Assembly: GCF_003574625.1 (NCBI RefSeq)
Contig: NZ_QNUJ01000010.1
Span: forward strand, 1 to 64,000
Length of the DNA stretch: 64,000 bases
Source of the DNA: Shinella zoogloeoides
GTDB lineage: Bacteria; Pseudomonadota; Alphaproteobacteria; Rhizobiales; Rhizobiaceae
Direction: 5' to 3'
The notes beneath the pieces were generated by a model. That model made no database searches. It was given only the letters and a program-made list of their open reading frames with translations, and was not told where the DNA came from. The position numbers and the translations under genes are program-made. Shown piece by piece: positions 375-12,808 of the stretch. Within the stretch, counting starts at the first letter, position 1. Every line of letters starts with the position of its first letter.

Positions 375-641
375 TCAGAGCTTACGGCGGATAACATCCT
401 GCAGCATCTCGCGGTCCAGCGTCAGATTTGCGACAATCTTCTTGAGCCTGGAGTTCTCGTCCTCCAGAGCTTTCAGACGGCGCATCTCATCGGGCAACAG
501 GCCCGCATACTTCTTGCGCCAATTGAAATAGGCCGCCTGGCTGATACCCGCCTTCCGGCAGATCTCTGCCACTGGCACGCCATCATCGCCCTGCTTCAAA
601 ATAAACGCCTTCTGGGCGTCCGAAAACTTCGATGCCTTCAT
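375..641 (-). CDS. IS3-family transposase OrfA (helix-turn-helix subunit)
   Basis: An 88-residue protein starting MKASKFSDAQKAFILKQG. It is the DNA-binding half of an IS3-type transposase, normally joined to OrfB by programmed -1 frameshifting. A helix-turn-helix (VAEICRKAGISQAAYFNWRKKY) is followed by a leucine-zipper-like stretch (LKALEDENSRLKKIVANL) and ends MLQDVIRRKL, typical of the IS407/IS2-like branch. The start at 641 matches the family start; an in-frame extension upstream runs into the inverted repeat and was not used. With orfB missing, the protein cannot catalyse transposition and could only bind ends or inhibit related elements. Confidence 0.85.
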   Translation of the reverse strand: MKASKFSDAQKAFILKQGDDGVPVAEICRKAGISQAAYFNWRKKYAGLLPDEMRRLKALEDENSRLKKIVANLTLDREMLQDVIRRKL

Positions 642-677
642 GCTTCCGCTCTTGTTCCCAGCCGGGAAATTACCACA

Positions 678-722
678 GAAAACTCCAGTTAAGAGCGGTC
701 CAGTTTTTTGGGGATCAGAACA
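678..722 (-). repeat. Right terminal inverted repeat of the IS3-family remnant
   Basis: On the minus strand from 722 it reads TGTTCTGATCCCC, then AAAAAACTGGACCGC, then TTAACTGGAGTTTTC. It lies just upstream of orfA, the usual place for the IS3 promoter end. Confidence 0.75.
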
Positions 723-883
723 GCTATCATGATGCACGGCTTCGTATCGTGGCCGCTGGGACGTGGGGCTTGATCGATATCCGCGCTTTCAGGTGCCGAT
801 AAAGCCGCTTCAAACAGTTCGGGGCGCAGGCCATCGCCACGCTGAGCGGCAATAGCATGCAAACCACGCAACAACGTCATCAT
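689..883 (-). CDS. Small unknown protein whose 3' end is formed by the IS element
   Basis: A good ribosome binding site (GGGAGGAAAATCC, then ATG) supports a start at 883. The frame reads MMTLLRGLHAIAAQRGDG and continues for 64 codons. The last ten or so codons (VLIPKKLDRS, stop) are translated from the right inverted repeat of the IS3 remnant, so the native C-terminus was lost when the element inserted. The first part overlaps the 3' end of the gene at 810-1307 in another frame. I do not recognise the family. It may be a broken gene rather than a functional one. Confidence 0.4.
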   Translation of the reverse strand: MMTLLRGLHAIAAQRGDGLRPELFEAALSAPESADIDQAPRPSGHDTKPCIMIAVLIPKKLDRS

Positions 884-1307
884 GGATTTTCCTCCCTCGC
901 ATTTTCCCGATTCGATTGTCAAACCGCATTGATGTGCCTGAGTGCGGAGGAATGACCCCAGATGTGACCTGGGGCGGCTCCCCCTTCTGGTCGTAGAGAG
1001 GGTCTGTTTCCGGGAACAGACCTTGCGCCTGCAGCGCCTCTGTTATCCGCTCCGGCCTGAGCGCGCGTTCCAGCTCCTCCAGTTGGCCGGATGCCCATTC
1101 GATCATTCTCTGGAATTCCGGGGAGGTCGTGTCGCTATCCTGCCGGAGACAAGCGCTTATCCAGGTCTTCAATTCGAGCGCCTGCCTCTGCCTGTCGAGG
1201 AGCTGCCGAAGCACTGCTCGGCGCGCGACTTCGCGCTGGCGCCGAACATCGGCCATCTGCTGACGGCGGCCGAGCTCTTGTGGGTTGTAGATATCAGGGG
1301 CGTCCAT
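810..1307 (-). CDS. Unknown protein, charged and probably helical; Ada-box controlled
   Basis: A 165-residue product starting MDAPDIYNPQELGRRQQ. I chose the ATG at 1307 over the one at 1319 because GGAG lies seven bases before it. The first 110 residues are rich in Arg, Gln, Leu and Glu and look like a long helix or coiled coil. The last 50 residues look less native, so the true 3' end may have been altered by the rearrangement at 223-722. Its promoter region carries a 22-bp Ada-box-like element on the same strand (1365-1386), 57 bases before the start, divergent from the methyltransferase at 1512. Function unknown; the regulatory element suggests a role in alkylation stress. Confidence 0.5.
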   Translation of the reverse strand: MDAPDIYNPQELGRRQQMADVRRQREVARRAVLRQLLDRQRQALELKTWISACLRQDSDTTSPEFQRMIEWASGQLEELERALRPERITEALQAQGLFPETDPLYDQKGEPPQVTSGVIPPHSGTSMRFDNRIGKMRGRKIHDDVVAWFACYCRSAWRWPAPRTV

Positions 1308-1364
1308 GCGCAACTCCATCTGGATTTGAACGCCGACGATACGGTGACTATTCGGGAGGCCGCG

Positions 1365-1386
1365 CTCCGAATATTGCCTTCAAATC
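1365..1386 (-). promoter_or_regulatory. Ada-box-like element, copy 1
   Basis: Reads GATTTGAAGGCAA, TATT, CGGAG on the minus strand. It lies 57 bases upstream of the unknown gene at 1307 and is back to back with copy 2 for the divergent ogt-like gene. Confidence 0.7.
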
Positions 1387-1430
1387 GAAAATAGCAGCAG
1401 GCACCCAAGGAGATCCGACGACCGATATTC

Positions 1431-1452
1431 GATTTGAAAGCAAGGTTCGGAG
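1431..1452 (+). promoter_or_regulatory. Ada-box-like element, copy 2
   Basis: Reads GATTTGAAAGCAA, GGTT, CGGAG, 59 bases upstream of the methyltransferase start at 1512. One of the closest copies to the consensus. Confidence 0.75.
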
Positions 1453-1511
1453 ATCGGCGCGCCGCGGCCGCTTCTATGTTCATCCCGCAATGAGCCTGGA
1501 AGGTAAAAACG

Positions 1512-2021
1512 ATGCGTGAGATTATTCGCTTTGCGTGGGGGATCAGCTCCCTTGGCGACTTTGTCGTCGCTATGTCCGAGAAGGGTCTTGTCGCCCTCGA
1601 ATTCAGTTCAATGCACGCGGCGATGGAAGACGCATTGCGCATCCGTTTTCCGGAAGCTGAACTTGAGCGTAGCGAGGACGGGCTGGCTGCCGTGATGGAG
1701 GTTGTGGCCGGCGTCATCGACGATCCGGCCTCCGACTGCGGCCTGCCGCTTGATCTCCGCGGCACATCTTATGAGGTGCAGGTCTGGATGATGCTGCGGG
1801 AAATTCGGGCGGGGCAGACGACCAGCTATGGGGCTTTGGCCGCCAAACTGGGGTCACGCGATCCGCGAGAAGTGACCGCGGCGATCGCCAACAATCCGAT
1901 CGCAGTGATCGTGCCGTGCCATCGCGTCATCAAGAAGGATGGCTCGATCTCCGGCTATCGCTGGGGTGTGCGCCGCAAGCGGGCGCTTTTGGCGCGTGAA
2001 CAGCATGGGGTGGAACGCTAG
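1512..2021 (+). CDS. ogt: Methylated-DNA-[protein]-cysteine S-methyltransferase (Ogt/Ada-C type)
   Basis: A suicide repair protein that moves the methyl group from O6-methylguanine or O4-methylthymine in DNA to its own cysteine. At 169 residues it matches Ogt length. The C-terminal half has the family core: SYGALAAKLG, then NNPIAVIVPCHRVIKKDGSISGY, with the acceptor cysteine at about residue 136 and the GYRWG loop after it. The N-terminal half resembles the corresponding part of Ada at 4858 (a LVALEF strand, then a divergent helical region). Its TAG stop is followed directly by the ATG of the next gene at 2022, so the two form one transcript. An Ada-box-like element precedes it at 1431-1452. 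It is one of three methyltransferase active sites in 9 kb. Confidence 0.93.
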   Translation: MREIIRFAWGISSLGDFVVAMSEKGLVALEFSSMHAAMEDALRIRFPEAELERSEDGLAAVMEVVAGVIDDPASDCGLPLDLRGTSYEVQVWMMLREIRAGQTTSYGALAAKLGSRDPREVTAAIANNPIAVIVPCHRVIKKDGSISGYRWGVRRKRALLAREQHGVER

Positions 2022-2645
2022 ATGTCGGATATGGACATGTTTTTGAAGGGTGCGCTGCGTGAGGAGCAGGCCGCGATCTCGCCGCTGGCGGGGCCGGGGA
2101 GTGATCTTCCCGAACCACTGGAGGTCATCCAGTTGTCGCTTGCATCCGTCGTCGCTGCCCGCGAGCGGTTTCCCGGCTATCGCCTGACGCGGCTGGTGGC
2201 CGCGCGGCTCGAACTGGACGAAGCCGATATCGGTCGCCTTTCTGGTATCCTCGATGCCGATCTTTTTCGGCCGACCCCCGGCGTGACGAGGCCCTTCGAT
2301 TTCCATTTGCGGGACGTGATCGCGCGATACGATCTGGGCGCGCTTTTCCGTGACGACGGGCATGCACCCTATCATCATTCGATCAGGCCGACCGGCTACG
2401 ACTTCCACCGCGACGAGGTGATTCCTGTCGGAATGGAGCAGTGGCGCGCCGATTATCGTCACATGCCGGACGAGCGGCAGATGATGGCCGCGTCCATCGT
2501 CTGGCTCTACAGGGCGGGGAAAGACAATGTCTGGCTGCGGCGGGTTCCATGCACATGGCATGCTGCCGACGTCATCGCCTGCTTAATCGCCGCTGGCGCT
2601 TTTGAGGACTGGACGCGCCTCTATGCACTCTATCCGGGCTGGTAG
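2022..2645 (+). CDS. Unknown conserved-looking protein coupled to ogt
   Basis: A 207-residue soluble protein (MSDMDMFLKGALREEQAAIS) with no signal peptide or membrane segment that I can see. The start codon abuts the stop of the upstream methyltransferase with no spacer, so translation is probably coupled and the two genes share the Ada-box-like element at 1431-1452. The C-terminal half is rich in Trp, His, Arg and Asp (YHHSIRPTGYDFHRDEV; then WLYRAGKDNVWLRRVPCTWHAADVIACL). I do not recognise the family. The tight link to a DNA methyltransferase suggests a role in handling alkylated DNA or alkylated metabolites; that is inference from context only. Confidence 0.75.
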   Translation: MSDMDMFLKGALREEQAAISPLAGPGSDLPEPLEVIQLSLASVVAARERFPGYRLTRLVAARLELDEADIGRLSGILDADLFRPTPGVTRPFDFHLRDVIARYDLGALFRDDGHAPYHHSIRPTGYDFHRDEVIPVGMEQWRADYRHMPDERQMMAASIVWLYRAGKDNVWLRRVPCTWHAADVIACLIAAGAFEDWTRLYALYPGW

Positions 2646-2696
2646 GTGCTGTGCCGTGAGGTCCGGACACAACCACCGGCAGGAAGCAGGCGAACG

Positions 2697-3152
2697 TCAG
2701 TGCAGCGCCTGTAGCCGATGGTCGACACGGACATCGCGGAGAAAGTCCAGCCAGGTGGCGATATCGTCATCGGTGGGCGTGAATCTGAAGGCCTTCTGCA
2801 CCAGGACCAGAACGCCGTTGGGTATGGAAAGCTTGAACCAGGTATTTTCCGGCTGGCCCGCTTCCCTGTTGAGCGCGCAGATCTGCGACCAGATCAGCGT
2901 CGGCTGTAGACCCTCATGCCCTTGCTCGATGATTTGCACCGAGCCGCGAGAACACATCTCCATCCACCCCTCTTTCATGCCGGCATAGAAGCTGTCGAGC
3001 GTATAACCGTTGACGTTGCGCATCACTTGAACTGTCAGCATTTCGGTCCATGTATCGAGCGTCTCCTCTTCGGGGAGCATCTCGATCGTCACGCCGACGT
3101 CATTCTTGATGCGGAAGGCTACCTTGTAGCCGTATGGGGTCTTTGAAAGCAT
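2697..3152 (-). CDS. Unknown protein, Ada-box controlled
   Basis: A 151-residue soluble protein starting MLSKTPYGYKVAFRIKND, with GGAG just before the ATG at 3152. Alternating hydrophobic residues suggest a mixed alpha/beta domain; Trp and Met are frequent (MKEGWMEMCSRGS; TWFKLSIPNGVLVLVQKAF). No signal peptide or known catalytic motif was recognised. The gene is divergent from the SnoaL-like gene at 3351. Each carries its own Ada-box-like element in the shared 198-bp gap, this one at 3186-3207, only 33 bases from the start. Its 3' end converges on the gene at 2022. Confidence 0.65.
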   Translation of the reverse strand: MLSKTPYGYKVAFRIKNDVGVTIEMLPEEETLDTWTEMLTVQVMRNVNGYTLDSFYAGMKEGWMEMCSRGSVQIIEQGHEGLQPTLIWSQICALNREAGQPENTWFKLSIPNGVLVLVQKAFRFTPTDDDIATWLDFLRDVRVDHRLQALH

Positions 3153-3185
3153 GACTCCACGTTGCGATCCGGCCTTTCGCCGGCA

Positions 3186-3207
3186 CTCCGTTTCTTGCCT
3201 TCGAATT
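3186..3207 (-). promoter_or_regulatory. Ada-box-like element, copy 3 (exact AAT-N6-GCAA)
   Basis: Reads AATTCGAAGGCAA, GAAA, CGGAG on the minus strand. It matches the E. coli Ada contact pattern AAT-N6-GCAA at all seven positions. It serves the minus-strand gene starting at 3152. Confidence 0.75.
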
Positions 3208-3243
3208 CGAAAAACTGAAAAACGAAGGCAGAAAATCGTTTCC

Positions 3244-3265
3244 GATTCAAAGGCATGAAACGGAG
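3244..3265 (+). promoter_or_regulatory. Ada-box-like element, copy 4
   Basis: Reads GATTCAAAGGCAT, GAAA, CGGAG, 85 bases upstream of the SnoaL-like gene at 3351. It is divergent from copy 3, with 36 bases between the two. Confidence 0.65.
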
Positions 3266-3350
3266 TTTGGCGCTCGGCAAGCTCCAATATCCCTCTCGCC
3301 AGGTCATCGAGCGGTTTCGATGGTCCCAGATTTGAAGAGAGGACTTTTCC

Positions 3351-3806
3351 ATGAGCAAGGAAGAAGACAACAAGGCCGTCGTCGTGCGCTGGTTCACCGA
3401 ATTCTGGGGCAAGGACGTCAACCTTGCCGTCATCGACGAGATCGCGCATCCCGACATGCTCCTCCACTATTCGCTGCATGAGCCGCGCCGCGGCCGTGCC
3501 GACATCAAGGCGTTCATGATCGACTTCCGCGCCGCGTTCCCCGACCTTAACTTCTGGGGCACCGCAGACCTGATCGCCGAGGGCGACTATGTGGTCGGCC
3601 AGTGGGAAGGCGGCGGCACGCAGACCGGCGCTGCCTGGAACGATGTCCTTCCGGGCTATGAGGGTCTTCCCGCCGCAACCGGCCGCAAGATGCACTTCAC
3701 CGGCAAGACCGTGCTGAAGGTGGTCGAGGGCCTGATCGTCGAGGAGAACGGCCTGGACGACGGCCTGACGGCGATGATGCAGCTCGGGCTGATCAAGAAA
3801 GCCTGA
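3351..3806 (+). CDS. SnoaL-like / NTF2-fold protein
   Basis: A 151-residue protein with a SnoaL-type alpha+beta barrel signature. The opening helix (KAVVVRWFTEFWGKDVNLAVIDEIAHPDMLLHYSL), the following AFMIDFRAAFPDLNFWG and the late strands (GDYVVGQWEGGGTQTG; KMHFTGKTVLKVVEG) are typical of polyketide-cyclase/ester-cyclase-like members. Such domains bind small hydrophobic ligands; the substrate here is unknown. GGACTTTTCC precedes the start. A strong hairpin terminator follows at 3858-3892, so it is monocistronic. Its own Ada-box-like element sits at 3244-3265, suggesting induction by alkylating agents. Confidence 0.85.
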   Translation: MSKEEDNKAVVVRWFTEFWGKDVNLAVIDEIAHPDMLLHYSLHEPRRGRADIKAFMIDFRAAFPDLNFWGTADLIAEGDYVVGQWEGGGTQTGAAWNDVLPGYEGLPAATGRKMHFTGKTVLKVVEGLIVEENGLDDGLTAMMQLGLIKKA

Positions 3807-3857
3807 TCGAACCGGTATCCGCCCGCCCAAGGGCCGGTGCCTTTCGAAGGGAGGATT

Positions 3858-3892
3858 GAGGCTCGCGCCCCGGCGCGGGCCTCGATTGTTTT
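3858..3892 (+). terminator. Rho-independent terminator after the SnoaL-like gene
   Basis: A stem GAGGC-T-CGCGCC pairs with GGCGCG-G-GCCTC around a very short loop (one T-G wobble) and is followed by ATTGTTTT. It separates the SnoaL-like unit from the next Ada-box-like element at 3921. Confidence 0.7.
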
Positions 3893-3920
3893 GGCGGCCT
3901 CTGAGTTCCCGGGAATTGTT

Positions 3921-3942
3921 GATTTCAGAACAGGATACGGAG
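3921..3942 (+). promoter_or_regulatory. Ada-box-like element, copy 5
   Basis: Reads GATTTCAGAACAG, GATA, CGGAG. A weaker match in the second half-site, 69 bases before the nucleotidyltransferase start at 4012 and directly after the preceding terminator. Confidence 0.55.
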
Positions 3943-4011
3943 CGCTCAAGGAAACGGACAGCGGTAAAACCAATGCATTGATCTTCATTGTTACGACGAG
4001 GAAGCACCGCC

Positions 4012-4530
4012 ATGATACGCATCGGTTATGCGCCCGGAGCCTACGATCTTTTCCATATCGGCCATCTGAATCTGTTGCGTCGCGCCAGAGAGCAGTGTGA
4101 TTACCTGATCGCCGGGGTGGTGTCGGACGAGATTCTGGCGAAACATAAGGGCGTCGTACCTGTTATTCCGCTCGAGGAGCGATTGGAGATCGTCGGAAAC
4201 ATCAGTTTTGTCGATGCTGCCCACCCGGCCATGACGAACGACAAGCTCGAAATCTGGCGGGATCTGCGCTTCAACGTGCTCTTCAAGGGGGACGATTGGC
4301 GTGGGACCGAGAAAGGTGACGAACTCGAACGCGAATTCGGAGCAGTCGGGGTAGATGTGATCTTCTTCCCCTATACGCACGCAACGTCGAGCAGCGCGCT
4401 CCGAAAAGCCATTCATACCAGGAGCGGGCTGGCAAACCATATCGCTACCGCCGAGAGTTTTTCGGGTGGCGTTCGCGCAATGCCATTTCCGCTGCAGTCG
4501 GAAGGGATGTTCCATGCCAGCGTCCGGTAA
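4012..4530 (+). CDS. Cytidylyltransferase-family protein (TagD/glycerol-3-phosphate cytidylyltransferase-like)
   Basis: A 172-residue nucleotidyltransferase-superfamily protein. The start MIRIGYAPGAYDLFHIGH has the HxGH nucleotide-binding motif at residues 15-18, and the later TSSSALRKAI corresponds to the ISSTxIR motif, so both active-site signatures are present. GAGGAAG lies before the ATG; an upstream in-frame ATG at 3988 is less well placed. The family couples CTP or ATP to a phosphorylated alcohol or similar acceptor; the acceptor here cannot be told from sequence. An overlapping small membrane-protein gene begins at 4514. The gene is unexpected inside a DNA-repair island, yet it has the same upstream element as its neighbours (3921-3942). 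Confidence 0.85.
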   Translation: MIRIGYAPGAYDLFHIGHLNLLRRAREQCDYLIAGVVSDEILAKHKGVVPVIPLEERLEIVGNISFVDAAHPAMTNDKLEIWRDLRFNVLFKGDDWRGTEKGDELEREFGAVGVDVIFFPYTHATSSSALRKAIHTRSGLANHIATAESFSGGVRAMPFPLQSEGMFHASVR

Positions 4531-4636
4531 CGCCCTTCTAGCAATTCTCGTGATCGTTCTGGCGATTTCGCTTTGCACCTGGAGCGGTCGCGGGACGTCC
4601 AACGGCGGCCCCAGGAAGCCACCAAGGCTCGGGTAA
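4514..4636 (+). CDS. Possible 40-residue membrane microprotein
   Basis: The frame MPASGNALLAILVIVLAI, then SLCTWSGRGTSNGGPRKPPRLG, has one clear membrane segment followed by a basic, Gly/Pro-rich tail. GGAAGGGATGTTCC, then ATG, gives a good ribosome binding site. It starts 17 bases before the stop of the nucleotidyltransferase, so it would be cotranscribed with it. A competing minus-strand frame starts at 4674 with its own good ribosome binding site; the hydrophobic segment makes me prefer the plus-strand reading. Confidence 0.4.
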   Translation: MPASGNALLAILVIVLAISLCTWSGRGTSNGGPRKPPRLG

Positions 4637-4777
4637 CGCGGTCGCGGGTGATAGCGACGTGGTCTTCGGGCCATTTTCCTTTCCTTCTCCGAGGTTGTGC
4701 CCTCGGCACGGATGCAATGCGTTGCCGGCATCGGCCGGGCGCTTGATATTCGCTCGATATCGGGTGGTTGACTGTTC

Positions 4778-4799
4778 GATTTGAGAGCAAGGATCGGAG
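4778..4799 (+). promoter_or_regulatory. Ada-box-like element, copy 6 (ada operon)
   Basis: Reads GATTTGAGAGCAA, GGAT, CGGAG, 58 bases upstream of the ada start. It would be the autoregulatory site of Ada and the only copy for the ada-alkA-6704-alkB unit. Confidence 0.78.
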
Positions 4800-4857
4800 T
4801 GCGGCCGGCTTTGGTTCTGGAGCAAGCTGGCACCAGATCAAATGCGAGTGAAAGACA

Positions 4858-5955
4858 ATGGAACAGGACATCCAGCCAATGAAGATATCTCGCAAGTCGG
4901 CTCTGCCTGTTGCCGACGACCCGCGCTGGGCGCGCATCGTTGCCCGCGACAAGACCGCCGACGGTGCGCTCTGGTATTCTGTTTCGACGACGGGTGTCTA
5001 TTGCCGCCCCTCGTGCCCGTCCCGCACGGCAAACCCGAAAAACGTGATGTTGCATGACACGATCGAGAGCGCGCGGGCGACAGGGTATCGCCCCTGCAAA
5101 CGGTGCAACCCCGAGGGCCTTTCGCTCGAATGCGAAAACGCCGCGCTGGTCGCGAAAGCCTGCCGCCTCATCGAGGAGCGCGAGGAGGAGCCATCGCTGG
5201 AAGAGCTGGCGGCTGCGGTCGACCGCAGTCCGAGCTATTTCCACCGCGTCTTCAAGGCTTCAACGGGCTTGACGCCAAAGGCCTATGCCTCGGCGAGCCG
5301 TGCGAAGAAAATCCGCGAGGGTCTGGAGACGGGCGCCAGCGTCACCGAGGCGATCTATGACGCCGGCTACAATTCAAGCGGCCGCTTCTACGAGAAGTCC
5401 ACGGGTATGCTCGGAATGACCCCGACGCAATACCGGACCGGTGGCGCGAACGAGGAAATCAAGTTCGCGGTCGGCCAGTCCTGTCTTGGTGCGATTCTCG
5501 TCGCTTCCAGCACCAGGGGCGTGGCCTCGATCCTGCTCGGCGATGATCCGGATGCGTTGGTCCGTAATCTTCAGGACCGCTTTCCGAAGGCGCGGCTGAT
5601 TGGCATGGACCGCGAATACGAGGCGCTGATCGCCCGCGTCTGCGGCTTCGTCGAGAATCCGGGCATCGGGCTCGATCTTCCGCTCGATGTCCGTGGCACG
5701 GCCTTCCAGCGTCGTGTCTGGCAAGCGCTCCAGGAAATCCCGGTCGGCGCGCGTGTGTCCTATGCGGAGGTCGCGCGGCGCATCGGGTCGCCGACCGCGG
5801 TGCGCGCGGTTGCCGGAGCGTGCGCCGCCAATAACATCGCGGTCGCCATTCCCTGCCATCGCGTGGTGCGCAATGACGGGGCGTTGTCGGGCTATGCATG
5901 GGGCGTCGATCGCAAGCGCCAGCTTCTCGATCGGGAGGCATCGCAGAATGCATAA
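4858..5955 (+). CDS. ada: Ada: bifunctional methylation-sensing activator and O6-methylguanine-DNA methyltransferase
   Basis: At 365 residues this is a full-length Ada. The N-terminal zinc domain has the four cysteines at about 49, 53, 80 and 83 (VYCRPSCPS and RPCKRC); the first is the methyl-phosphotriester acceptor that turns Ada into an activator. An AraC-type helix-turn-helix follows (about 90-190, with SLEELAAAVDRSPSYFHRVFK). The C-terminal methyltransferase domain ends in AIPCHRVVRNDGALSGY, with the acceptor cysteine at about 333. All key residues are present. ATG at 4858 is used; a second ATG at 4879 is possible. It heads an operon with alkA, an unknown gene and alkB, and has an Ada-box-like element at 4778-4799. 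It is the expected regulator of all ten elements in the island. Confidence 0.97.
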   Translation: MEQDIQPMKISRKSALPVADDPRWARIVARDKTADGALWYSVSTTGVYCRPSCPSRTANPKNVMLHDTIESARATGYRPCKRCNPEGLSLECENAALVAKACRLIEEREEEPSLEELAAAVDRSPSYFHRVFKASTGLTPKAYASASRAKKIREGLETGASVTEAIYDAGYNSSGRFYEKSTGMLGMTPTQYRTGGANEEIKFAVGQSCLGAILVASSTRGVASILLGDDPDALVRNLQDRFPKARLIGMDREYEALIARVCGFVENPGIGLDLPLDVRGTAFQRRVWQALQEIPVGARVSYAEVARRIGSPTAVRAVAGACAANNIAVAIPCHRVVRNDGALSGYAWGVDRKRQLLDREASQNA

Positions 5956-6042
5956 GGATCGGAATATCGACGCTTTCGCGCCGCTTTCGGACTGCGGAGC
6001 GGCAAATCGAAATCAGCTCACCATTGCCGGGGCGGTATCTGA

Positions 6043-6684
6043 ATGAACTTTCATACCCGCTACGATGAATCCGTCGCTTTCCTCGCGAGCCACGATGATG
6101 ACTGGGCGAGGCTGATCGACCTGATCGGCCCTTGTCGGCACGACCCCAAGGCCGCCCGCGAACCCTATGAGGCGCTCGTGCGGGCAATCGCCTATCAGCA
6201 ACTGACGGCCAAGGCCGGCGATGCGATCATTGGCCGTCTGAAGGGCCTTTTCGAGGGGCGTGATTTCCCAACCCCGGAAGACCTCATCGCAATGGAGTTC
6301 GATACGCTTCGAACTTCTGGCTTCTCTGTCAGCAAGATCGCCACCATCAAGGCGATTGCGCAGGGGACGATGGACGGCCTGATCCCGACTCGCGCCGTCG
6401 CCGCCACCATGGATGACGAAACGCTGATCGAGCGCATGGTCACCATAAAAGGCGTCGGCCGTTGGACCGTCGAGATGCTGCTGATGTACTCGCTGGAACG
6501 GATGGATGTCTTGCCCGTCGACGACTTTGGTGTTCGGGAAGGCTATCGCGTCCTGAAATCGTTGCCCGGGCAGCCGAAACCGAAGGAATTGCGCGAGATC
6601 TCAAAAGCATGGTCGCCGCATCGTACGGTCGCTGCCTGGTACCTTTGGCGCATCCCGCGCGAGCGCGGAAATGTGCTTGCCTAA
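6043..6684 (+). CDS. alkA: DNA-3-methyladenine glycosylase II (AlkA family)
   Basis: A base-excision glycosylase that removes 3-methyladenine and other alkylated bases. The 213 residues cover the helix-hairpin-helix domain; the N-terminal beta domain of E. coli AlkA (282 residues) is absent, as in Mag1-type enzymes. The hairpin motif IKGVGRWTVEM is followed by LPVDDFGVREG, with the catalytic aspartate at about 161. It lies 87 bases downstream of ada with no visible Ada-box-like element, so it is probably read from the ada promoter. The next gene starts 19 bases after its stop. Confidence 0.95.
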   Translation: MNFHTRYDESVAFLASHDDDWARLIDLIGPCRHDPKAAREPYEALVRAIAYQQLTAKAGDAIIGRLKGLFEGRDFPTPEDLIAMEFDTLRTSGFSVSKIATIKAIAQGTMDGLIPTRAVAATMDDETLIERMVTIKGVGRWTVEMLLMYSLERMDVLPVDDFGVREGYRVLKSLPGQPKPKELREISKAWSPHRTVAAWYLWRIPRERGNVLA

Positions 6685-6703
6685 AAGGGCCGGGAAGAGT
6701 GTC

Positions 6704-7336
6704 ATGCCGCTTCAAAATCGCGTAACCCCTTTCGGCGACATCGTTGCCATCTCCCAGCGGGGCCTGTTCACCGGCAATCGCGGCATCATCCACGATCCCA
6801 CCACGAAGACGCTGCTGCGAAAGCGCTGGGCGACACACGCCTGGCTTATCTGTTCGTGCGACTTCAAAGGGCGCCGTCGGAGCGTCATGGCCCTGCGAAG
6901 CTGGACGGAATTGTTCTTCCTTGACGAGGCTGTGGCGCTGGCCGCCGGTCATCGTCCCTGTTTCCTGTGTCGACGCGAAGCCGCGGAACGATTTCGCGCG
7001 TGCTGGGTCGCCGCGAGGAACGAGCCTCGGAGCCTGGCCGCGCGGATGGATTCCGTGCTGCATGCGGAGCGGTGGGAACGCGGCCGTCAGCGCATGCATC
7101 CAAATCCGTATCTGCTGACGGAGCTGCCTGACGGCGTTGTCGTCGCCACGGAGGGGGAGGCATATACGCTGCGCACCGGCCTTGCATATCGCTGGACCGT
7201 CGGGGGCTACGACCGGCCAGTGGTTCTCCATGATGCCAGTTGGCTGCTGACACCGCCATCGACGCTCCTGGCACTCTTTGAGGGCTACGAGCCCGTCCTT
7301 CATCCCTCGATCAATGCGACACCGGATAGGCCCTGA
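6704..7336 (+). CDS. Unknown cysteine-containing protein between alkA and alkB
   Basis: A 210-residue protein starting MPLQNRVTPFGDIVAISQRG, with GGGAAGAG before the ATG. It has CSC at about 50-52 and HRPCFLCRREAAERF at 83-97, a CxxC that could bind metal, with Trp- and Arg-rich surroundings (RRSVMALRSWTELFFLDEAVALAAGHRPC). No membrane segment or signal peptide is visible. From memory, proteins of this type are found beside ada/alkB in alphaproteobacteria and annotated only as hypothetical. Its position, 19 bases after alkA and with its stop next to the alkB start at 7338, places it in the Ada operon. Nucleic-acid binding or processing is a guess from context. Confidence 0.88.
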   Translation: MPLQNRVTPFGDIVAISQRGLFTGNRGIIHDPTTKTLLRKRWATHAWLICSCDFKGRRRSVMALRSWTELFFLDEAVALAAGHRPCFLCRREAAERFRACWVAARNEPRSLAARMDSVLHAERWERGRQRMHPNPYLLTELPDGVVVATEGEAYTLRTGLAYRWTVGGYDRPVVLHDASWLLTPPSTLLALFEGYEPVLHPSINATPDRP

Positions 7337-7337
7337 T

Positions 7338-7988
7338 ATGCCCGATCTATTTGACATGCTTGCCCCGACCGAACTCTCCGTCGAAAACATGGCCGAAGGC
7401 GCCATGCTGTTGCGCGGTGCAGCGCTTGCCTATGAGAAAGACCTGCTCGTGGCGCTCGGCGATATCACCGGCCAGTCTCCCTTCCGGCACATGGTCACGC
7501 CCGGCGGCTTCACCATGTCGGTGGCGATGACCAATTGCGGCGCGGCCGGCTGGGTCACGGATCGCACCGGTTATCGCTACGATCGCAACGACCCGGAGAC
7601 AGGCCGTCCCTGGCCGGCCATGCCGGACTGCTTCCTCGATCTGGCAGTGGAGACAGCGACGCGGGCAGGTTACCCGGATTTTCGCCCCGACGCCTGCCTG
7701 ATCAACCGCTATGAGTCCGGTGCTCGTCTCTCGCTGCATCAGGACAAGAATGAACGGGACTTTGCCAATCCGATCGTGTCGGTCTCCCTCGGCTTGCCGG
7801 CGACCTTCCAGTTCGGTGGTCTGAAGCGGAACGATCCCGTGAAGAAATATGCATTGCGGCATGGTGACGTGGCGGTCTGGGGCGGCCCGTCGCGGCTCTT
7901 CTATCACGGCGTACCCGAATTGAAGGAGGGCCTTCATGAGACCGTCGGGCGGATGCGGATCAATCTAACGTTCCGGGGAGCGCTGTAA
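7338..7988 (+). CDS. alkB: AlkB: 2-oxoglutarate/Fe(II)-dependent DNA dealkylase
   Basis: It oxidatively removes methyl groups from 1-methyladenine and 3-methylcytosine in DNA. The length of 216 residues equals that of E. coli AlkB, and the iron ligands and 2-oxoglutarate arginines fall at the expected places: H134 and D136 in LSLHQDKNE, H190 in FYHGV, and R207 and R213 in RMRINLTFRG. The dinucleotide-binding loop is represented by GYRYDRNDPETGRPWPAMP. I chose the ATG at 7338, directly after the TGA of the previous gene; an upstream in-frame ATG at 7278 would add residues unlike AlkB. Last gene of the ada operon. Confidence 0.96.
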   Translation: MPDLFDMLAPTELSVENMAEGAMLLRGAALAYEKDLLVALGDITGQSPFRHMVTPGGFTMSVAMTNCGAAGWVTDRTGYRYDRNDPETGRPWPAMPDCFLDLAVETATRAGYPDFRPDACLINRYESGARLSLHQDKNERDFANPIVSVSLGLPATFQFGGLKRNDPVKKYALRHGDVAVWGGPSRLFYHGVPELKEGLHETVGRMRINLTFRGAL

Positions 7989-8005
7989 GTTTCGAATATT
8001 CCTTC

Positions 8006-8027
8006 GGTTTGACGACAATAACCGGAG
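8006..8027 (+). promoter_or_regulatory. Ada-box-like element, copy 7
   Basis: Reads GGTTTGACGACAA, TAAC, CGGAG. It lies 18 bases after alkB and 115 bases before the small gene at 8143, the longest element-to-start distance in the set. Confidence 0.55.
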
Positions 8028-8142
8028 TGCCGCTGAAACAATCTTGGTGCCAGATGTGCTATCAATCGGAAAGTCGACCTGCGGATTTCTGGTCGTTCAG
8101 GATCGGACAGCCGCAACGACAAGGACAAGGATATCCAGGCTT

Positions 8143-8394
8143 ATGTTCTCGCGCGGCGGATTCGATGCGAAGGCGAGCCGGCGCAGGCTACCCGGAACGG
8201 AAGCGGCTGCCGACGCCCTCGTTGCGCTTGCCCGGGACAATCCGGATAAGGCGCTCGTCATGAGATATATCGGCCAGCTCGTGGCTGATGGCTACGCGGA
8301 ATGGGCCGCGCTCGCCAATGGAGAGATCGAGGTCTGTTTCACAACCGGTGAAACCTACTTGCTCACGGAAACCACGATCATCAGGCTCGCTTGA
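8143..8394 (+). CDS. Small unknown protein (83 residues)
   Basis: The frame MFSRGGFDAKASRRRLPGTE runs to NGEIEVCFTTGETYLLTETTIIRLA. A basic N-terminus leads into a helical part (AAADALVALARDNPDKALVMRYIGQLVADGY) and a predicted beta hairpin. AAGGACAAGGA is the upstream ribosome binding site. A longer in-frame start at 8044 is possible but has poorer upstream sequence. It forms a single-gene unit between alkB and the oxygenase genes, with its own Ada-box-like element at 8006-8027. Family not recognised. Confidence 0.6.
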   Translation: MFSRGGFDAKASRRRLPGTEAAADALVALARDNPDKALVMRYIGQLVADGYAEWAALANGEIEVCFTTGETYLLTETTIIRLA

Positions 8395-8473
8395 CCGATT
8401 GCCCGCCGAAAGCGCCGTGCGTCTCCCGCGTGCGGCGAGGAGATGTTTTCTCGCGATGGCGGCCGGCCATCGC

Positions 8474-8495
8474 AGTTTGAAAGTATGAATCGGAG
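8474..8495 (+). promoter_or_regulatory. Ada-box-like element, copy 8
   Basis: Reads AGTTTGAAAGTAT, GAAT, CGGAG, 84 bases upstream of the first of the three paralogous oxygenases (start 8580). Confidence 0.6.
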
Positions 8496-8579
8496 TGTGA
8501 GCGCGGGTCGAAAGTGCTCGATAGGGCAAGGCGTCACTCAGCGCCGCTCTCTCGCCGCTTATCCCGGAAGAACACGATC

Positions 8580-9332
8580 ATGAAAATGCAACTGGACCAC
8601 GATCGGCCCGATGTCCCGTTCGCGGGTTACATCGAGCGTATCGCGCGCTATCCATGGGACCGCATCGCGGGCGATCTCGATGCCTACGGCGCTGCCGTTC
8701 TCCCCGGCCTGCTGTCCGACGACGAGTGTGTCGCCGCCGCGGAATTCTTCAGCAGCTCCTGGCTGGTCCGTGTCCCTGCTGTGGAAGACCAGCGCGCCTG
8801 GGGCAATGGTAATTATCGCTACATGCGCTATCCGCTTCCGGCGCTCGTCACCAGCCTGCGGACGGCCATCTATCCGCGCCTGGCGCCGATCGCCAACGCA
8901 TGGAACGAGAAAATGGAGATCGGCGAACGTTACCCGATCACCCATGAGGCTTATCTCGAGACCTGCCATCGTGTCGGCCAGACCATTCCAACGTCGATGA
9001 TGCTGGAGCACGCCGCCGGGCAGCAAACACTGCTGCACCAGGACATTTACGGCGAGCGGGCGTTTCCGCTTCAGGTCGCGATCATGCTCTCGCAACGCGG
9101 GGCGGACTATGCCGGTGGCGAGTTCGTAATCACCGAGCAGCGCCCGCGCATGCAAACCCGTCCCGAGGTCGTCACTCTCGGAAAGGGCGACGCCGTCGTG
9201 TTTGCCGTCTCGAACCGCCCTGTAACGGGCACGCGAGGCACGTATCGCGTCAACTTGCGCCATGGCTTCAGCCAGGTTCGCGAGGGCCGGCAACATGTGC
9301 TCAGCATCATCTTCCACGACGCGGCCCTGTAG
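8580..9332 (+). CDS. 2OG-Fe(II) oxygenase, paralogue 1 (not AlkB family)
   Basis: A 250-residue protein starting MKMQLDHDRPDVPFAGYIER, with GGAAG before the ATG at 8580. The HxD iron motif is in LLHQDIYGERAFPLQVAIML, the strand GGEFVITEQRPR follows, and the distal iron histidine is in VNLRHG. After it the family pattern HGVSRVRSGxRH is altered to HGFSQVREGRQH, so the arginine expected to bind the 2-oxoglutarate carboxylate is shifted by one position or lost. The overall fold resembles prolyl-4-hydroxylase-type oxygenases rather than AlkB. The next gene begins 17 bases downstream, so the pair shares the element at 8474-8495. Substrate unknown; alkylated DNA, RNA or protein are candidates from context. 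Confidence 0.85.
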   Translation: MKMQLDHDRPDVPFAGYIERIARYPWDRIAGDLDAYGAAVLPGLLSDDECVAAAEFFSSSWLVRVPAVEDQRAWGNGNYRYMRYPLPALVTSLRTAIYPRLAPIANAWNEKMEIGERYPITHEAYLETCHRVGQTIPTSMMLEHAAGQQTLLHQDIYGERAFPLQVAIMLSQRGADYAGGEFVITEQRPRMQTRPEVVTLGKGDAVVFAVSNRPVTGTRGTYRVNLRHGFSQVREGRQHVLSIIFHDAAL

Positions 9333-9349
9333 GCGACGGAGACCTGACG

Positions 9350-10081
9350 ATGACAATTCTTCAAGCCGAGAACCTTTCCCCCGCCGAGCGCGTGGATCGG
9401 GTCGATTGGGACCGCATGGCGAAAGATCTCGCCGGCGGCGGTTCGGCTGTCGCCCGGCAGTTGCTGACGCCTGAGGAATGCGAGGCGCTCACGGCCCTTT
9501 ATCCGCAGAACGATCTCTTCCGCAGCCGCGTCGTCATGGCGCGCTACGCATTCGGCAAGGGCGAATACCAGTATTTCAGCTATCCCCTCCCGGATCTCGT
9601 CGGCGAGTTGCGCACCGCATTCTACCGTCGTCTGGCGCCGATCGCCAATGGCTGGAACCAGCGGATGCGCATCGATACCAGCTATCCGGCCGAGCATGCC
9701 GATTATCTCGACCTTTGCCATCGCGCCGGCCAGAAGCGGCCGACGCCGTTGCTGCTCGAATATGGTGCGGGCGACTACTGCTGCATGCATCAGGATCTCT
9801 ATGGCGATCTCGCATTTCCCATGCAGGTTGTGATCCTGCTGGCCGAGCCGGAGCAGGATTTCACCGGTGGGGAATTCCTGCTCGTCGAACAGAACCCGCG
9901 AGGCCTTTCCAAGGCGGAGGTCGTTCCGCTTCGGCAGGGCGATGCGGTAGCCTTCGCCGTCAACCACCGGCCGGCGAAAAGCGCGCGGGGAACCGCGCGC
10001 GTGAACCTTCGTCACGGTGTCAGCCGCCTGCACTCCGGGCATCGCCATACGCTCGGCATCATTTTCCACGACGCGAAATAG
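9350..10081 (+). CDS. 2OG-Fe(II) oxygenase, paralogue 2
   Basis: A 243-residue paralogue of the genes at 8580 and 10793. The iron motif is in CCMHQDLYGDLAFPMQVVILL, then GGEFLLVEQNPR, and the C-terminus NLRHGVSRLHSGHRHTLG has both the distal histidine and the canonical arginine. The N-terminal half, with VDWDRMAKDLAGGGSAVARQLL and the aromatic stretch YAFGKGEYQYFSYPLPDLV, is shared by all three. It is 17 bases downstream of paralogue 1 and probably cotranscribed with it. Codon use matches its neighbours, so the triplication is not obviously recent foreign DNA. Confidence 0.87.
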   Translation: MTILQAENLSPAERVDRVDWDRMAKDLAGGGSAVARQLLTPEECEALTALYPQNDLFRSRVVMARYAFGKGEYQYFSYPLPDLVGELRTAFYRRLAPIANGWNQRMRIDTSYPAEHADYLDLCHRAGQKRPTPLLLEYGAGDYCCMHQDLYGDLAFPMQVVILLAEPEQDFTGGEFLLVEQNPRGLSKAEVVPLRQGDAVAFAVNHRPAKSARGTARVNLRHGVSRLHSGHRHTLGIIFHDAK

Positions 10082-10147
10082 GCGATGGCCGATCGATAGG
10101 CCGGGCGCACAAACGCCCGCCATCATTCATTCTCGCAACAAGACTTC

Positions 10148-10169
10148 GATTTGAAAACAAGGATCGGAG
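10148..10169 (+). promoter_or_regulatory. Ada-box-like element, copy 9
   Basis: Reads GATTTGAAAACAA, GGAT, CGGAG, 60 bases before the second methyltransferase at 10230. Confidence 0.75.
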
Positions 10170-10229
10170 TTCGAGGGCGCGGTGAAGGTCGTAGTTTCGA
10201 TCATGAGGTTCGAACAAGGAGATACGACG

Positions 10230-10796
10230 ATGAACCGCATGATCAATATCGATATGCTGCGGTCCGATCCGCAGGAAAATGCAATTCCGGTGACCGCTGA
10301 CGTTCTCTCTTATGCGATCGCCAACTGCGAAATGGGCAAGGTGCTGGTCGCACGCAGCCCGAAGGGCGTTTGTTCGATCCTGCTGGGCGATGATGCAGAG
10401 GTGCTGGTGGAGGATATTGCCGGCCGCTTCCCGCAGTCGACGCTCGTTCCGAACGAGCGCGCTGTGAAGGACGATGTCGCCAGGGTCCTGCGCTATCTCG
10501 CGAAACCCTCCGACGGTTTGCAGTTGACGCTCGACATGCGCGGCACGCCGTTCCAGCGCCGCGTCTGGGAGAAGTTGCGGACCATACCCACCGGCCGGAC
10601 GGTGAGCTACACCGAGCTTGCCCGCTGGGTGAGCCCGCTTTCCCATCCGCGCGCCGTCGCTACCGCCTGCGCCGCCAACCCGATCGCGTTGGCCATCCCC
10701 TGCCACCGCGTCCGGCGAAGTGACGGCGGCCTTGCCGGCTATCGCTGGGGGCTCGAGCGCAAGCGCATCCTCATCGAGAAGGAAGCCCGGGCATGA
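10230..10796 (+). CDS. Methylated-DNA-[protein]-cysteine S-methyltransferase, Ada-C paralogue
   Basis: A 188-residue suicide methyltransferase. It closely follows the C-terminal half of Ada at 4858: SILLGDDAE here against SILLGDDPD there, and RGTPFQRRVWEKLRTIPTG against RGTAFQRRVWQALQEIPVG. The acceptor cysteine is at about residue 158 in AIPCHRVRRSDGGLAGY. It lacks the N-terminal zinc domain and the AraC helix-turn-helix, so it repairs bases but cannot sense phosphotriesters or act as activator. AAGGAGATACGACG gives a strong ribosome binding site for ATG 10230; an earlier ATG at 10203 is less likely. Its stop overlaps the start of the oxygenase at 10793 (ATGA), so the two are coupled. Confidence 0.92.
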   Translation: MNRMINIDMLRSDPQENAIPVTADVLSYAIANCEMGKVLVARSPKGVCSILLGDDAEVLVEDIAGRFPQSTLVPNERAVKDDVARVLRYLAKPSDGLQLTLDMRGTPFQRRVWEKLRTIPTGRTVSYTELARWVSPLSHPRAVATACAANPIALAIPCHRVRRSDGGLAGYRWGLERKRILIEKEARA

Positions 10797-11542
10797 ACGG
10801 GACTGCGAACACCATGGTTCCGGCCTCCGCGGATGTACCCGCGGAGGCTCGGATTGCCGCCTATGACTGGCAGGCGCTGGCCGGCGAGCTCGACAGCTAT
10901 GGCTGCGCCGTCCTGCCCAACCTTCTCTCGGCGGAGGAGTGCCGCGGCCTCGCTGCGCTCTATCCCGATACGAGCCATTTCCGCAGCCATATCATCATGG
11001 CGCGGCATGGCTTCGGGAAGGGCGAATATCGCTACTTCAAGTATCCGCTTCCAGATATCATCGGCGGTATCCGCACGGCCCTCTATCCGCCCCTTGCCGG
11101 TGTCGCCAATCGCTGGAACGAGCGGATGGGGCTGGACCAGCGGTTCCCCGGCGAACACGCCGCTTTCCTGAAGCAGTGCCACGATGCCGGCCAGGTCCGG
11201 CCGACGCCGCTCCTGCTGCAGTACGTCTCCGGTGACTTCAACTGCCTGCATCAGGATCTCTATGGCGATCTCGCCTTCCCGATCCAGGTGGCGATCCTGC
11301 TGTCCGAGCCGGGCCGCGATTTCACGGGCGGCGAGTTCGCACTGACCGAACAGCGGCCGCGCATGCAGAGCCGCGTCGAAGTCGTGCCGCTGCGCCAGGG
11401 TGATGCCGTTGCTTTCGCAGTTCACAATCGCCCGGTCCAGGGGACGAAGGGAAACTATCGCGTGAACCTGCGCCATGGCGTCAGCCGCGTCCGCTCCGGC
11501 ATGCGCCACACCGTCGGGATCATTTTCCACGACGCGCGGTGA
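10793..11542 (+). CDS. 2OG-Fe(II) oxygenase, paralogue 3
   Basis: A 249-residue oxygenase with the iron motif in CLHQDLYGDLAFPIQVAILL, the strand GGEFALTEQRPRMQ, and a canonical C-terminus NLRHGVSRVRSGMRHTVG that carries the distal histidine and the 2-oxoglutarate arginine. It is closer to paralogue 2 than to paralogue 1 in its HQDLYGDLAFP block. Its ATG overlaps the TGA of the methyltransferase gene by four bases, so one transcript makes an alkyl acceptor and an oxygenase. A GC-rich hairpin follows at 11553-11579. Confidence 0.88.
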   Translation: MNGTANTMVPASADVPAEARIAAYDWQALAGELDSYGCAVLPNLLSAEECRGLAALYPDTSHFRSHIIMARHGFGKGEYRYFKYPLPDIIGGIRTALYPPLAGVANRWNERMGLDQRFPGEHAAFLKQCHDAGQVRPTPLLLQYVSGDFNCLHQDLYGDLAFPIQVAILLSEPGRDFTGGEFALTEQRPRMQSRVEVVPLRQGDAVAFAVHNRPVQGTKGNYRVNLRHGVSRVRSGMRHTVGIIFHDAR

Positions 11543-11552
11543 TCACGCGATG

Positions 11553-11579
11553 CCGGCGCCGCACTTGGCGCGGCGCCGG
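11553..11579 (+). terminator. Hairpin after oxygenase paralogue 3
   Basis: A perfect 10-bp stem, CCGGCGCCGC pairing with GCGGCGCCGG, has a 7-base loop and begins 10 bases after the stop codon. Only a short TT follows, so it may act as a terminator or an mRNA-stabilising structure. Confidence 0.5.
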
Positions 11580-11896
11580 TTCATCAAGGAAACACGCCCT
11601 GTCGCTCGGGGACGGGTTTTCCAGGTGAGCCGGACTGTGTAATCGACAAGCGTGTATCTGCCTGCCGCATGGGAATGCGCGCCGTCGAACTCCAGATTTT
11701 GGAAGAAGTTTCCTCTGGGTGCGAGATTCATGATCTATATGTCTCTCTCGTCAGGGCGATAACGAGGCATGAGTCAGAACCGGCGCGATGCGAGTTGCAT
11801 CTAAGCGTTGAGGAAACCTTCAACAGGATTGTCTCTCTGGTTCATATCTGGGGCACCCTTCTCAAAGTGAAAGCCCGCGCAGGGGCACATGGGAAT

Positions 11897-11940
11897 CGCC
11901 GCACCGCGAAAATGGCGGTGCGGCGCTGTCATTTGATTTT
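11897..11940 (+). terminator. Strong hairpin followed by a T-rich run
   Basis: An 11-bp stem, CGCCGCACCGC pairing with GCGGTGCGGCG, has a 7-base loop and is followed by ATTTGATTTTT after a few bases. It would isolate chaC from transcription arriving from the oxygenase genes. Confidence 0.55.
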
Positions 11941-11969
11941 TCGAAATCCGTTCGCCGAGGCTCATTCCC

Positions 11970-11991
11970 GATTTGCGGATAGCAAACGGAG
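11970..11991 (+). promoter_or_regulatory. Ada-box-like element, copy 10
   Basis: Reads GATTTGCGGATAG, CAAA, CGGAG, 79 bases before chaC. The GATTTG and CGGAG ends hold at the right spacing, but the GCAA half-site is degenerate. Confidence 0.5.
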
Positions 11992-12070: not shown

Positions 12071-12808
12071 ATGCATAAGGCTCAATTCACCAATCCGGCA
12101 ATCTCAGTGGTGTCGCCAGGCGCGACGATCCTGACCCGCGAATTGTTGGTCAGGGGTGGTGCAGCGTCTCTCGTCCACAGGGATGCGGCGGACGTTCGAC
12201 TGTTGTCGGACGAGCAGCGCCGCACGTCGCTTGACACATTCATGAAGAGCCGGCCAGCGGGTGATCTCTGGATTTTCGCTTACGGATCGTTGATCTGGAA
12301 TCCGGCGTTGCGAATCTCGGAACGCCGAGTGGCAGAGATTCATGGCTGGCATCGGTCGTTCTGCCTATCGATGTCGGTCGGACGTGGTACGCCGGGTCAA
12401 CCCGGACTGGTGCTGGGTCTTGACCGTGGCGGTGTTTGCAAGGGCGTTGCCTATCGGATCGACGAGCGCGACGTCTCGTCCGAGCTTCCCATCCTGTGGA
12501 GCCGTGAAATGCTGGTTGGTGGCTACAACCCGATCTGGACTGACTTGATCGGGGATGGCGGTGAAAAGTTCGGTGCTGCGATCATCTTCACGATCGACCA
12601 AGGACACGACAACTATGCCGGAGGCATATCGCTGCAAGAGAAGGTCAGGCGCCTGGCCATTGCGGAGGGAAGCTGGGGATCTTCGGCAGACTACCTGTTT
12701 CGCACGATCGGCAGCCTTCGCGAGCACGGGATCCACGACGTCGAAATCGAACATCTTGGAGTTATGGTCGCCTCTGCTGCATTCGAAGCATTCGGTGAGG
12801 CTGCTTGA
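12071..12808 (+). CDS. chaC: Glutathione-specific gamma-glutamylcyclotransferase (ChaC family)
   Basis: It degrades glutathione to 5-oxoproline and Cys-Gly. The 245-residue protein has the family signature IFAYGSLIWNP at about 68-78, then WHRSFCLSMSVGRGTPGQPGLVLGL and the catalytic-glutamate region SREMLVGGYNPIW. ATG 12071 gives a normal ChaC length. Its placement at the end of the alkylation island, with an Ada-box-like element at 11970-11991, suggests that turnover of glutathione or of alkylated glutathione is part of the response; the link is inference. Confidence 0.9.
   Translation: MHKAQFTNPAISVVSPGATILTRELLVRGGAASLVHRDAADVRLLSDEQRRTSLDTFMKSRPAGDLWIFAYGSLIWNPALRISERRVAEIHGWHRSFCLSMSVGRGTPGQPGLVLGLDRGGVCKGVAYRIDERDVSSELPILWSREMLVGGYNPIWTDLIGDGGEKFGAAIIFTIDQGHDNYAGGISLQEKVRRLAIAEGSWGSSADYLFRTIGSLREHGIHDVEIEHLGVMVASAAFEAFGEAA

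Follow-up and report, generated by a model that had tools for sequence, protein, structure and literature searches.

The window analysed here, a 64,000-nucleotide stretch of the genome of the soil bacterium Shinella zoogloeoides (contig NZ_QNUJ01000010.1, positions 1 to 64,000 of the forward strand), contains ten copies of a 22-base-pair (bp) element that we predict to be operators for Ada, the protein encoded at 4858-5955. Each has a three-part layout, with an A-box (consensus RAT), six bases, a B-box (consensus GCAA), four bases and an X-box (CGGAG), in which T3, T4, A12 and the CGGAG at positions 18-22 are invariant. An earlier note on this DNA had listed the ten copies, and their coordinates and strands prove correct, as do its statements that each copy lies 33-115 bases before a start codon in the direction of the gene, that CGGAG is at a fixed spacing (10/10 copies) and that every transcription unit between 810 and 12808 has exactly one copy, there being ten units and ten sites.

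All features are on the plus strand except where stated. Copy 1 (1365-1386, minus strand; GAT..GCAA..CGGAG) is 45 bases before the gene of a 169-amino-acid (aa) protein without a Pfam or NCBIfam match (810-1319, minus strand), and copy 2 (1431-1452), the exact consensus, is 59 bases before ogtA (1512-2021), which encodes an O6-methylguanine-DNA methyltransferase (PF01035) and abuts the gene of a 207-aa protein with no family match (2022-2645). Copy 3 (3186-3207, minus strand; AAT..GCAA..CGGAG) precedes by 33 bases the gene of a 151-aa protein, also with no family match (2697-3152, minus strand), copy 4 (3244-3265) precedes by 85 bases a SnoaL-like gene (3351-3806; PF07366), and copy 5 (3921-3942) precedes by 69 bases a nucleotidyltransferase gene whose product is cytidylyltransferase-like (4012-4530; PF01467). 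Copy 6 (4778-4799) is located 58 bases before ada (4858-5955), which is followed by genes encoding an AlkA-like DNA glycosylase (6043-6684; PF00730), a 221-aa protein containing CFLCRREA and with no family match (6671-7336), located between alkA and alkB, and an AlkB-like 2-oxoglutarate-Fe(II) dioxygenase (7338-7988; PF13532). In copies 7 and 8 the A- and B-boxes are degenerate; copy 7 (8006-8027) is 115 bases before the ATG at 8143 of a short protein with no family match (8143-8394; the frame is also listed from 8044, as 116 aa) and copy 8 (8474-8495) is 84 bases before a pair of PF09859 oxygenase genes, A (8580-9332) and B (9350-10081). Copy 9 (10148-10169), the highest scoring, precedes ogtB (10230-10796; methyltransferase, PF01035), followed by PF09859 oxygenase C (10793-11542), and copy 10 (11970-11991), the lowest scoring, is 79 bases before the gene of a ChaC-like gamma-glutamylcyclotransferase (12071-12808; PF04752). 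Five of the cluster proteins have no assigned family.

The elements are members of a family rather than near-identical copies. A matrix built from the ten and scanned over the window gives them 24.2-33.6 bits, with the next-best place in the window at 10.0 bits, and in leave-one-out matrices the copies still score 18.9-31.8 bits, so that each is recovered without contributing to the matrix. The consensus given in the earlier note, allowed up to three mismatches, finds five of the ten (shuffled sequences give a mean of 0.03). The possibility that CGGAG is a Shine-Dalgarno sequence was ruled out by its distance from the start codons.

The 5.4-Mb genome of the strain was searched with a degenerate pattern built from the ten copies, not with the matrix, so more divergent or weaker sites could escape. 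The only exact matches are the ten; allowing one or two mismatches adds 17, as compared with 22 for the reversed control pattern. Among the 17, the top score is 20.9 bits and the other 16 have at most 17.2 bits. This best site, C23:223552, is not convincing, as the position where a -10-like hexamer is usually found holds none; the site is flanked by two opposite-strand frames, one phosphoesterase-like (ending ~20 bases away) and one LacI-type, and no recognised gene follows in the direction of the site. The pattern search therefore revealed no convincing operator beyond the ten, and this, together with the recurrence of the arrangement in other Rhizobiales documented below, supports its proposal of a clustered regulon. 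A pattern search of 121 genomes of the family was too loose to use, with matches in 110 of the 121 and frequent matches to the reversed control.

The Ada protein and the third box

According to the published view, in the parts of the account drawn on here, there are two Ada switches, one reading A- plus B-boxes (E. coli) and one reading B- plus X-boxes (Caulobacter), each with its own protein type (PMC10957082). Kamat et al. 2024 reported that the sites read by Caulobacter Cada2 consist of GCAA and an X-box, CGG, without an A-box, and that changing the Arg of the RLHD motif in its second helix-turn-helix (HTH2) compromised binding and abrogated induction; all EcAda-type organisms tabulated there carried the E. 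coli features (PMC10957082). The third box of the window elements matches this X-box, reported there in place of an A-box and here apparently combined with one.

The window Ada has the E. coli layout, with a metal-binding A-box domain (PF02805), an AraC-type HTH pair (PF12833) and a methyltransferase domain (PF01035) in one chain, all scoring over their cut-offs. Of the acceptor cysteines and box-contacting residues, C42, C73, R49, R75 and R123, and C326 of the PCHR motif, are invariant across the 21 proteins aligned; conservation of the B-box contacts is partial, with Ser and Tyr at the positions of E. coli F114 and H115. Its HTH2 reads SSGRFYE, in which Arg176 (Arg169 if counted from the ATG at 4879) aligns with the Arg of RLHD in Cada2. 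The two have this Arg in common, but the window protein has RFYE, not RLHD, and retains the metal-binding domain, and so is not a Cada2. The site before ada, at 4778, reads GAT-N6-GCAA, as expected for an EcAda-type operator except that its first letter is G, not A. Across the ten window copies, a Cada2-type order, GCAA (exact in 4) then CGG (in all 10), is also present, with a four-base spacer where three bases were published. The spacing of the A- and B-boxes, the alignment with the E. coli A-box contacts and B-box Arg, and the site before ada itself all argue for the Ada operator proposed in the earlier note.

A structural model of the full-length Ada was poor (predicted local distance difference test, pLDDT, 67.9, with HTH2 below 50), and the HTH part was therefore modelled alone; L265, which has a stop in frame, was excluded from this second fold. 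The resulting model (pLDDT 76.7) has an AraC-type two-HTH fold in which the Arg lies next to where the second recognition helix begins. It matches structures of N-Ada-DNA, AdpA-DNA and MarA-DNA, for the last two no farther than model residue 88. Those PDB matches that are N-Ada chains have at most 146 residues and stop ahead of HTH2. In two-HTH activators of the AraC family, the two HTHs read successive major grooves. The position of CGGAG is consistent with an additional contact, as an AraC-type second HTH should read one step past the B-box.

The 300 bp upstream of each gene were searched in 205 distinct full-length Ada genes (of 222) from the class and phylum of the window, the class of an enteric-like genome (the classes being inferred to be Alpha- and Gammaproteobacteria), 78 named loci and E. 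coli K-12. One search gave 76 places in 59 genomes, of which 70 loci (30 + 40) were analysed. A smaller set, likewise of full-length frames, had 134 genes, 123 of them distinct. Relatives were taken only where the match covered both ends of Ada. GCAA-N4-CGG is present upstream of 98 of the 162 genes with an Arg-type HTH2 versus 1 of the 43 non-Arg genes, and no other spacing from GCAA to CGG occurs in more than 7 of the 162. With one representative per 70% identity, the counts are 55/74 and 1/32, and when sites were picked by their A- and B-boxes alone, CGG follows in 35 of 38 Arg-type but in none of 8 non-Arg representatives. These are counts of sequences, not of evolutionary events. The residue after the Arg also covaries with the end of the X-box: the last base of the X-box is T in 11 of 12 representatives with Leu or Val at this position versus 1 of 41 with Phe, and the sole Ile-type protein with a site, outside the representatives, has CGGAT. 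The extra CGGAG half-site proposed in the earlier note thus gains support from its fixed spacing, from its association with the HTH2 Arg across the 205 proteins and from its location one step past the B-box. Of the 55 Arg-type representatives that have an X-box, 36 retain AT in the A-box, and some lineages therefore seem to manage with B- and X-boxes while retaining the metal-binding domain.

One family of genomes, f167, provides a natural contrast. Loci L162 and L164-L167 have an A+B+X-type site 47-55 bases before ada (with CAGAG in L164 and CGGGG in L166); other members have a TRALY-type HTH2 and no such site.

Promoter geometry and the proposed switch

Among 108 sites that precede Arg-type ada genes, 59 have a hexamer conforming to YANNNT exactly 22 bp downstream of the X-box (other offsets: mean 1.6, maximum 7), as do 84 of a further 175 sites in the related loci (other offsets: mean 2.2, maximum 8), counts that come from related sequences and so are not independent draws. 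Within the window, the hexamer is exemplified by TATGTT at copy 2 and TAGTTT at copy 9. No TTGACA-like -35 sequence was seen at the operator sites examined, and a conserved TG directly follows CGGAG. If the hexamer is the -10 element, CGGAG would span roughly -39 to -35, within reach of sigma for a bound activator. In the E. coli ada promoter, the -10 sequence, which we take to be TAAAGG, is by our count 5 bp farther from GCAA than in the three-box sites.

From the sites, their fixed spacings, the link to the Arg, the -10 phasing and the recurrence in other genomes, all directly visible in the sequences, we infer binding, an assignment of domains to boxes, methyl dependence and activation. Specifically, it is probable that the ten elements are Ada sites with three boxes read by three parts of the protein, and that methylated Ada activates the ten clustered units. 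The Ada encoded at 4858-5955 would bind each element, with the A-box RAT read by the metal-binding domain, the B-box GCAA by the first HTH, and CGGAG, a step farther on the same face, by the second HTH through its SSGRFYE Arg. With the -10 element 22 bp downstream, the X-box would be just upstream of the would-be -35 position, and as no TTGACA-like sequence was seen there, bound Ada would presumably recruit RNA polymerase to a -10-only promoter. Transfer of a methyl group from damaged DNA to Ada would switch the system on, so that expression of ada would rise together with that of the nine other units, which encode direct-repair and associated enzymes.

Several observations weigh against this reading. 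The statement in the earlier note that the first half is usually GAT-N6-GCAA holds for the A-box, which is GAT or AAT in 8 of the 10 copies, but overstates the B-box, which is exactly GCAA in 4 of 10. At offset 22, YANNNT is present in 2 and TA in 4 of the 10 window copies. The structural model is least certain in HTH2, where the pLDDT is below 50 at residues 89-97. The representatives L173, L355 and L200 have an A+B site without CGG (7/74 in the full set), and 64 of the 162 Arg-type genes lack a site within the 300 bp searched; loci L252-L294, many of which have operators before SnoaL and ogtB instead, account for 29 of the 64. For six Arg-type genes elsewhere, sequences farther upstream have three clear A+B+X or B+X sites, one doubtful GCAA-N4-CGG and, in two cases, none. 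GCAA-N5-CGG precedes 9 of the 43 non-Arg genes, including 4 of the 11 that have an A+B site, the enteric-like L176, L177, L180 and L182 with GCAA-GRTTG-CGGGTTT, which may reflect common ancestry or a one-base shift of the third contact. On the tree, the Arg trait changes only 4-5 times, with one independent pair on supported branches, and shared ancestry could therefore explain much of the association of the Arg with the X-box; with one pair, a sign test on independent contrasts cannot reach significance, and the Leu/Val-Phe trait changes once.

A different reader of CGGAG has also to be considered, namely a Cada2-like protein with RLHD that is encoded elsewhere in this genome. The element could be a composite, with Ada at the A- and B-boxes and this regulator at the B- and X-boxes, consistent with the GCAA and CGG read by Cada2 in the parts of PMC10957082 drawn on here and with the four bases that separate the B- and X-boxes both in the window operators and in Cada2-like promoters. 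We consider this improbable. The promoter of cada2 itself reads GCAGGAAACGGGTG, without an A-box, and GCAR-N4-CGGGTG is present before the Cada2-like gene in 11 of the 23 loci examined, the own locus included (the pattern demanded CGGGTG), whereas all ten window sites have CGGAG, a difference that makes Ada the likelier of the two to read the cluster sites. Furthermore, the X-box tracks the HTH2 of Ada itself, in a comparison that scored the genomes behind the 205 proteins for Ada alone.

That CGGAG is instead a sigma-factor promoter element, substituting for a -35 sequence, would account for its rigid 22-bp distance from the -10-like hexamer where TTGACA is not seen, and for the conserved TG that overlaps the would-be -35 position. 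However, 22 bp exceeds the usual -35 to -10 spacer of 17 bp, CGGAG is spaced no less rigidly from GCAA than from the -10 hexamer, and a sigma contact would not be expected to track a residue in Ada; such a role is very unlikely. Consistent with this, scrambling a whole B+X site resulted in loss of Cada2-dependent induction (PMC10957082, in the parts drawn on here). The window also has three oxygenase genes, and three genes with methyltransferase domains (ada included), that look like duplicates, as they might if the ten sites were remnants of one duplicated promoter and its flank with no common regulator. But the flanks of the ten copies are dissimilar, the sites precede unrelated families, and the same families carry the operator in other genera, making this explanation hardly credible.

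Relation to other Ada systems

The window system shares with the E. coli Ada regulon (ada-alkB, alkA and aidB) the architecture of Ada, the A-box-N6-B-box arrangement and, as predicted here, autoregulation of ada and control of alkA and alkB. E. coli ada, however, has no CGG after GCAA and its Ada has Ser at the HTH2 position where the window Ada has Arg, and the E. coli targets are few and dispersed rather than clustered. With Caulobacter Cada2 there are in common the B-box GCAA, the X-box CGG, the Arg in the second HTH and the link to adaptive response genes, but Cada2 has no metal-binding domain and there is no A-box in its sites; the published spacer between the B- and X-boxes is 3 bp (PMC10957082, in the parts drawn on here), versus 4 in the Cada2-like promoters read here, in which the X-box is CGGGTG rather than the CGGAG of the window. 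MarA, SoxS, Rob and AdpA are likewise two-HTH activators of the AraC family, with a fold that matches the Ada HTH model, to which Ada adds the metal-binding domain as a third reader, and methylation as the trigger. No third box for an EcAda-type Ada was found in the literature searched, in the parts of papers drawn on and mostly outside subscription journals. The identity of the third box with the X-box of Cada2, its link to the HTH2 Arg, the presence in the same genome of a Cada2-like regulator with a different site, and the breadth of the arrangement all go beyond the earlier note.

We suggest, at close to an even chance but somewhat below it, that Ada proteins with an Arg-type HTH2 form a third widespread class with three boxes, in which HTH2 sets the X-box and the A-box decays in some lineages, and that E. 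coli Ada and Cada2 are reduced forms of a three-contact ancestor. The residue rule would then be that Arg specifies CGG, with a following Phe giving CGGAG or CGGGA, Leu, Val or Ile giving CGGAT, and RLHD giving CGGGTG. E. coli Ada would have lost or shifted the third contact and Cada2 would have lost the metal-binding domain, so that they would not be alternative inventions; given the N5-spaced CGG of the enteric-like loci, loss of the third contact in E. coli is only one reading. A three-box switch would join the A+B and B+X types, give the second HTH of Ada a role, provide a readable residue-to-base rule and allow Ada regulons to be predicted in rhizobia.

It would also offer a testable reason for an earlier result. 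In Pseudomonas putida, an Ada box made up of A and B parts governs AlkA and Ada, and the A-box is reported to be less needed and exchange of the E. coli and P. putida boxes to have failed; the parts of this account drawn on here name no X-box (PMC3788762). A third contact could explain both the lesser need and the failed exchange. Six genomes guessed to be Pseudomonas, with a TRALY-type HTH2, have no A+B+X site before ada or in ~3 kb upstream, which is neutral for this explanation; one of the six has a GCAA-N4-CGG match without an A-box.

All 20 genomes of the genus have a Cada2-like protein, judged from match ranges, with RLHD read in the fetched loci only. A search of the own genome for GCARGANNCGGGTG gave five matches (control, 0), one being that of cada2 and one preceding a 166-aa frame; the remaining three precede only unconvincing or coding frames. 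The second Cada2-type site (GCAGGAAACGGGTG), at C3:164360 (L368), makes the 166-aa frame a candidate target of the Cada2-like regulator. In the relatives L108-L110, the Ada operator is preceded at 33-34 bp by a GCAAGAAYCGGGT site, ~112 bases from ada, and such tandem Cada2- and Ada-type sites suggest that Cada2 feeds Ada in some strains. At 4761 in the window, CGGGTGG remains, without a clear B-box.

Recurrence of the arrangement and neighbouring genes

Operators scoring at least 18 bits were found at 208 sites in 73 of the 78 named loci, and at none in shuffles of the 1.43 Mb. These loci were chosen by their Ada, many being from Mesorhizobium, and so are neither random nor independent, and the survey is of the surroundings of ada. 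The downstream gene, taken as the longest frame within 260 bp and assigned by BLAST to the window proteins, is SnoaL-like in 52 loci, ogtB-like in 42, ada in 35, ogtA-like in 11, oxygenase C in 10, a member of the 116-aa family in 7 and the cytidylyltransferase in 5; the downstream frame matches no window protein in 22 loci and there is no frame in 5. Rhizobium tropici PTD1, isolate AFS001111 and Bradyrhizobium neotropicale each have ten sites of at least 14 bits (9, 9 and 8, respectively, at 18 bits or more), and the window is therefore among the richest examples of a recurrent arrangement. Rhizobial Ada regulons would, on this evidence, take in SnoaL-like, PF09859 and other little-studied genes.

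The SnoaL-like gene is the commonest operator neighbour; SnoaL goes unmentioned among the matches listed by a literature search for SnoaL and alkylation. The three PF09859 oxygenase paralogues are all located within 8580-11542, and the family is described in Pfam as acting on damaged DNA, an action for which we know of no direct test. A full-length Ada with at least 83% identity is present in 5 of the 20 genus genomes searched, the own genome included, and a sixth has one at 52%; with this distribution, the cluster looks accessory in the genus. A transposase-like open reading frame (375-737, minus strand; PF01527) lies next to the cluster, where the contig begins, and may indicate a mobile boundary.

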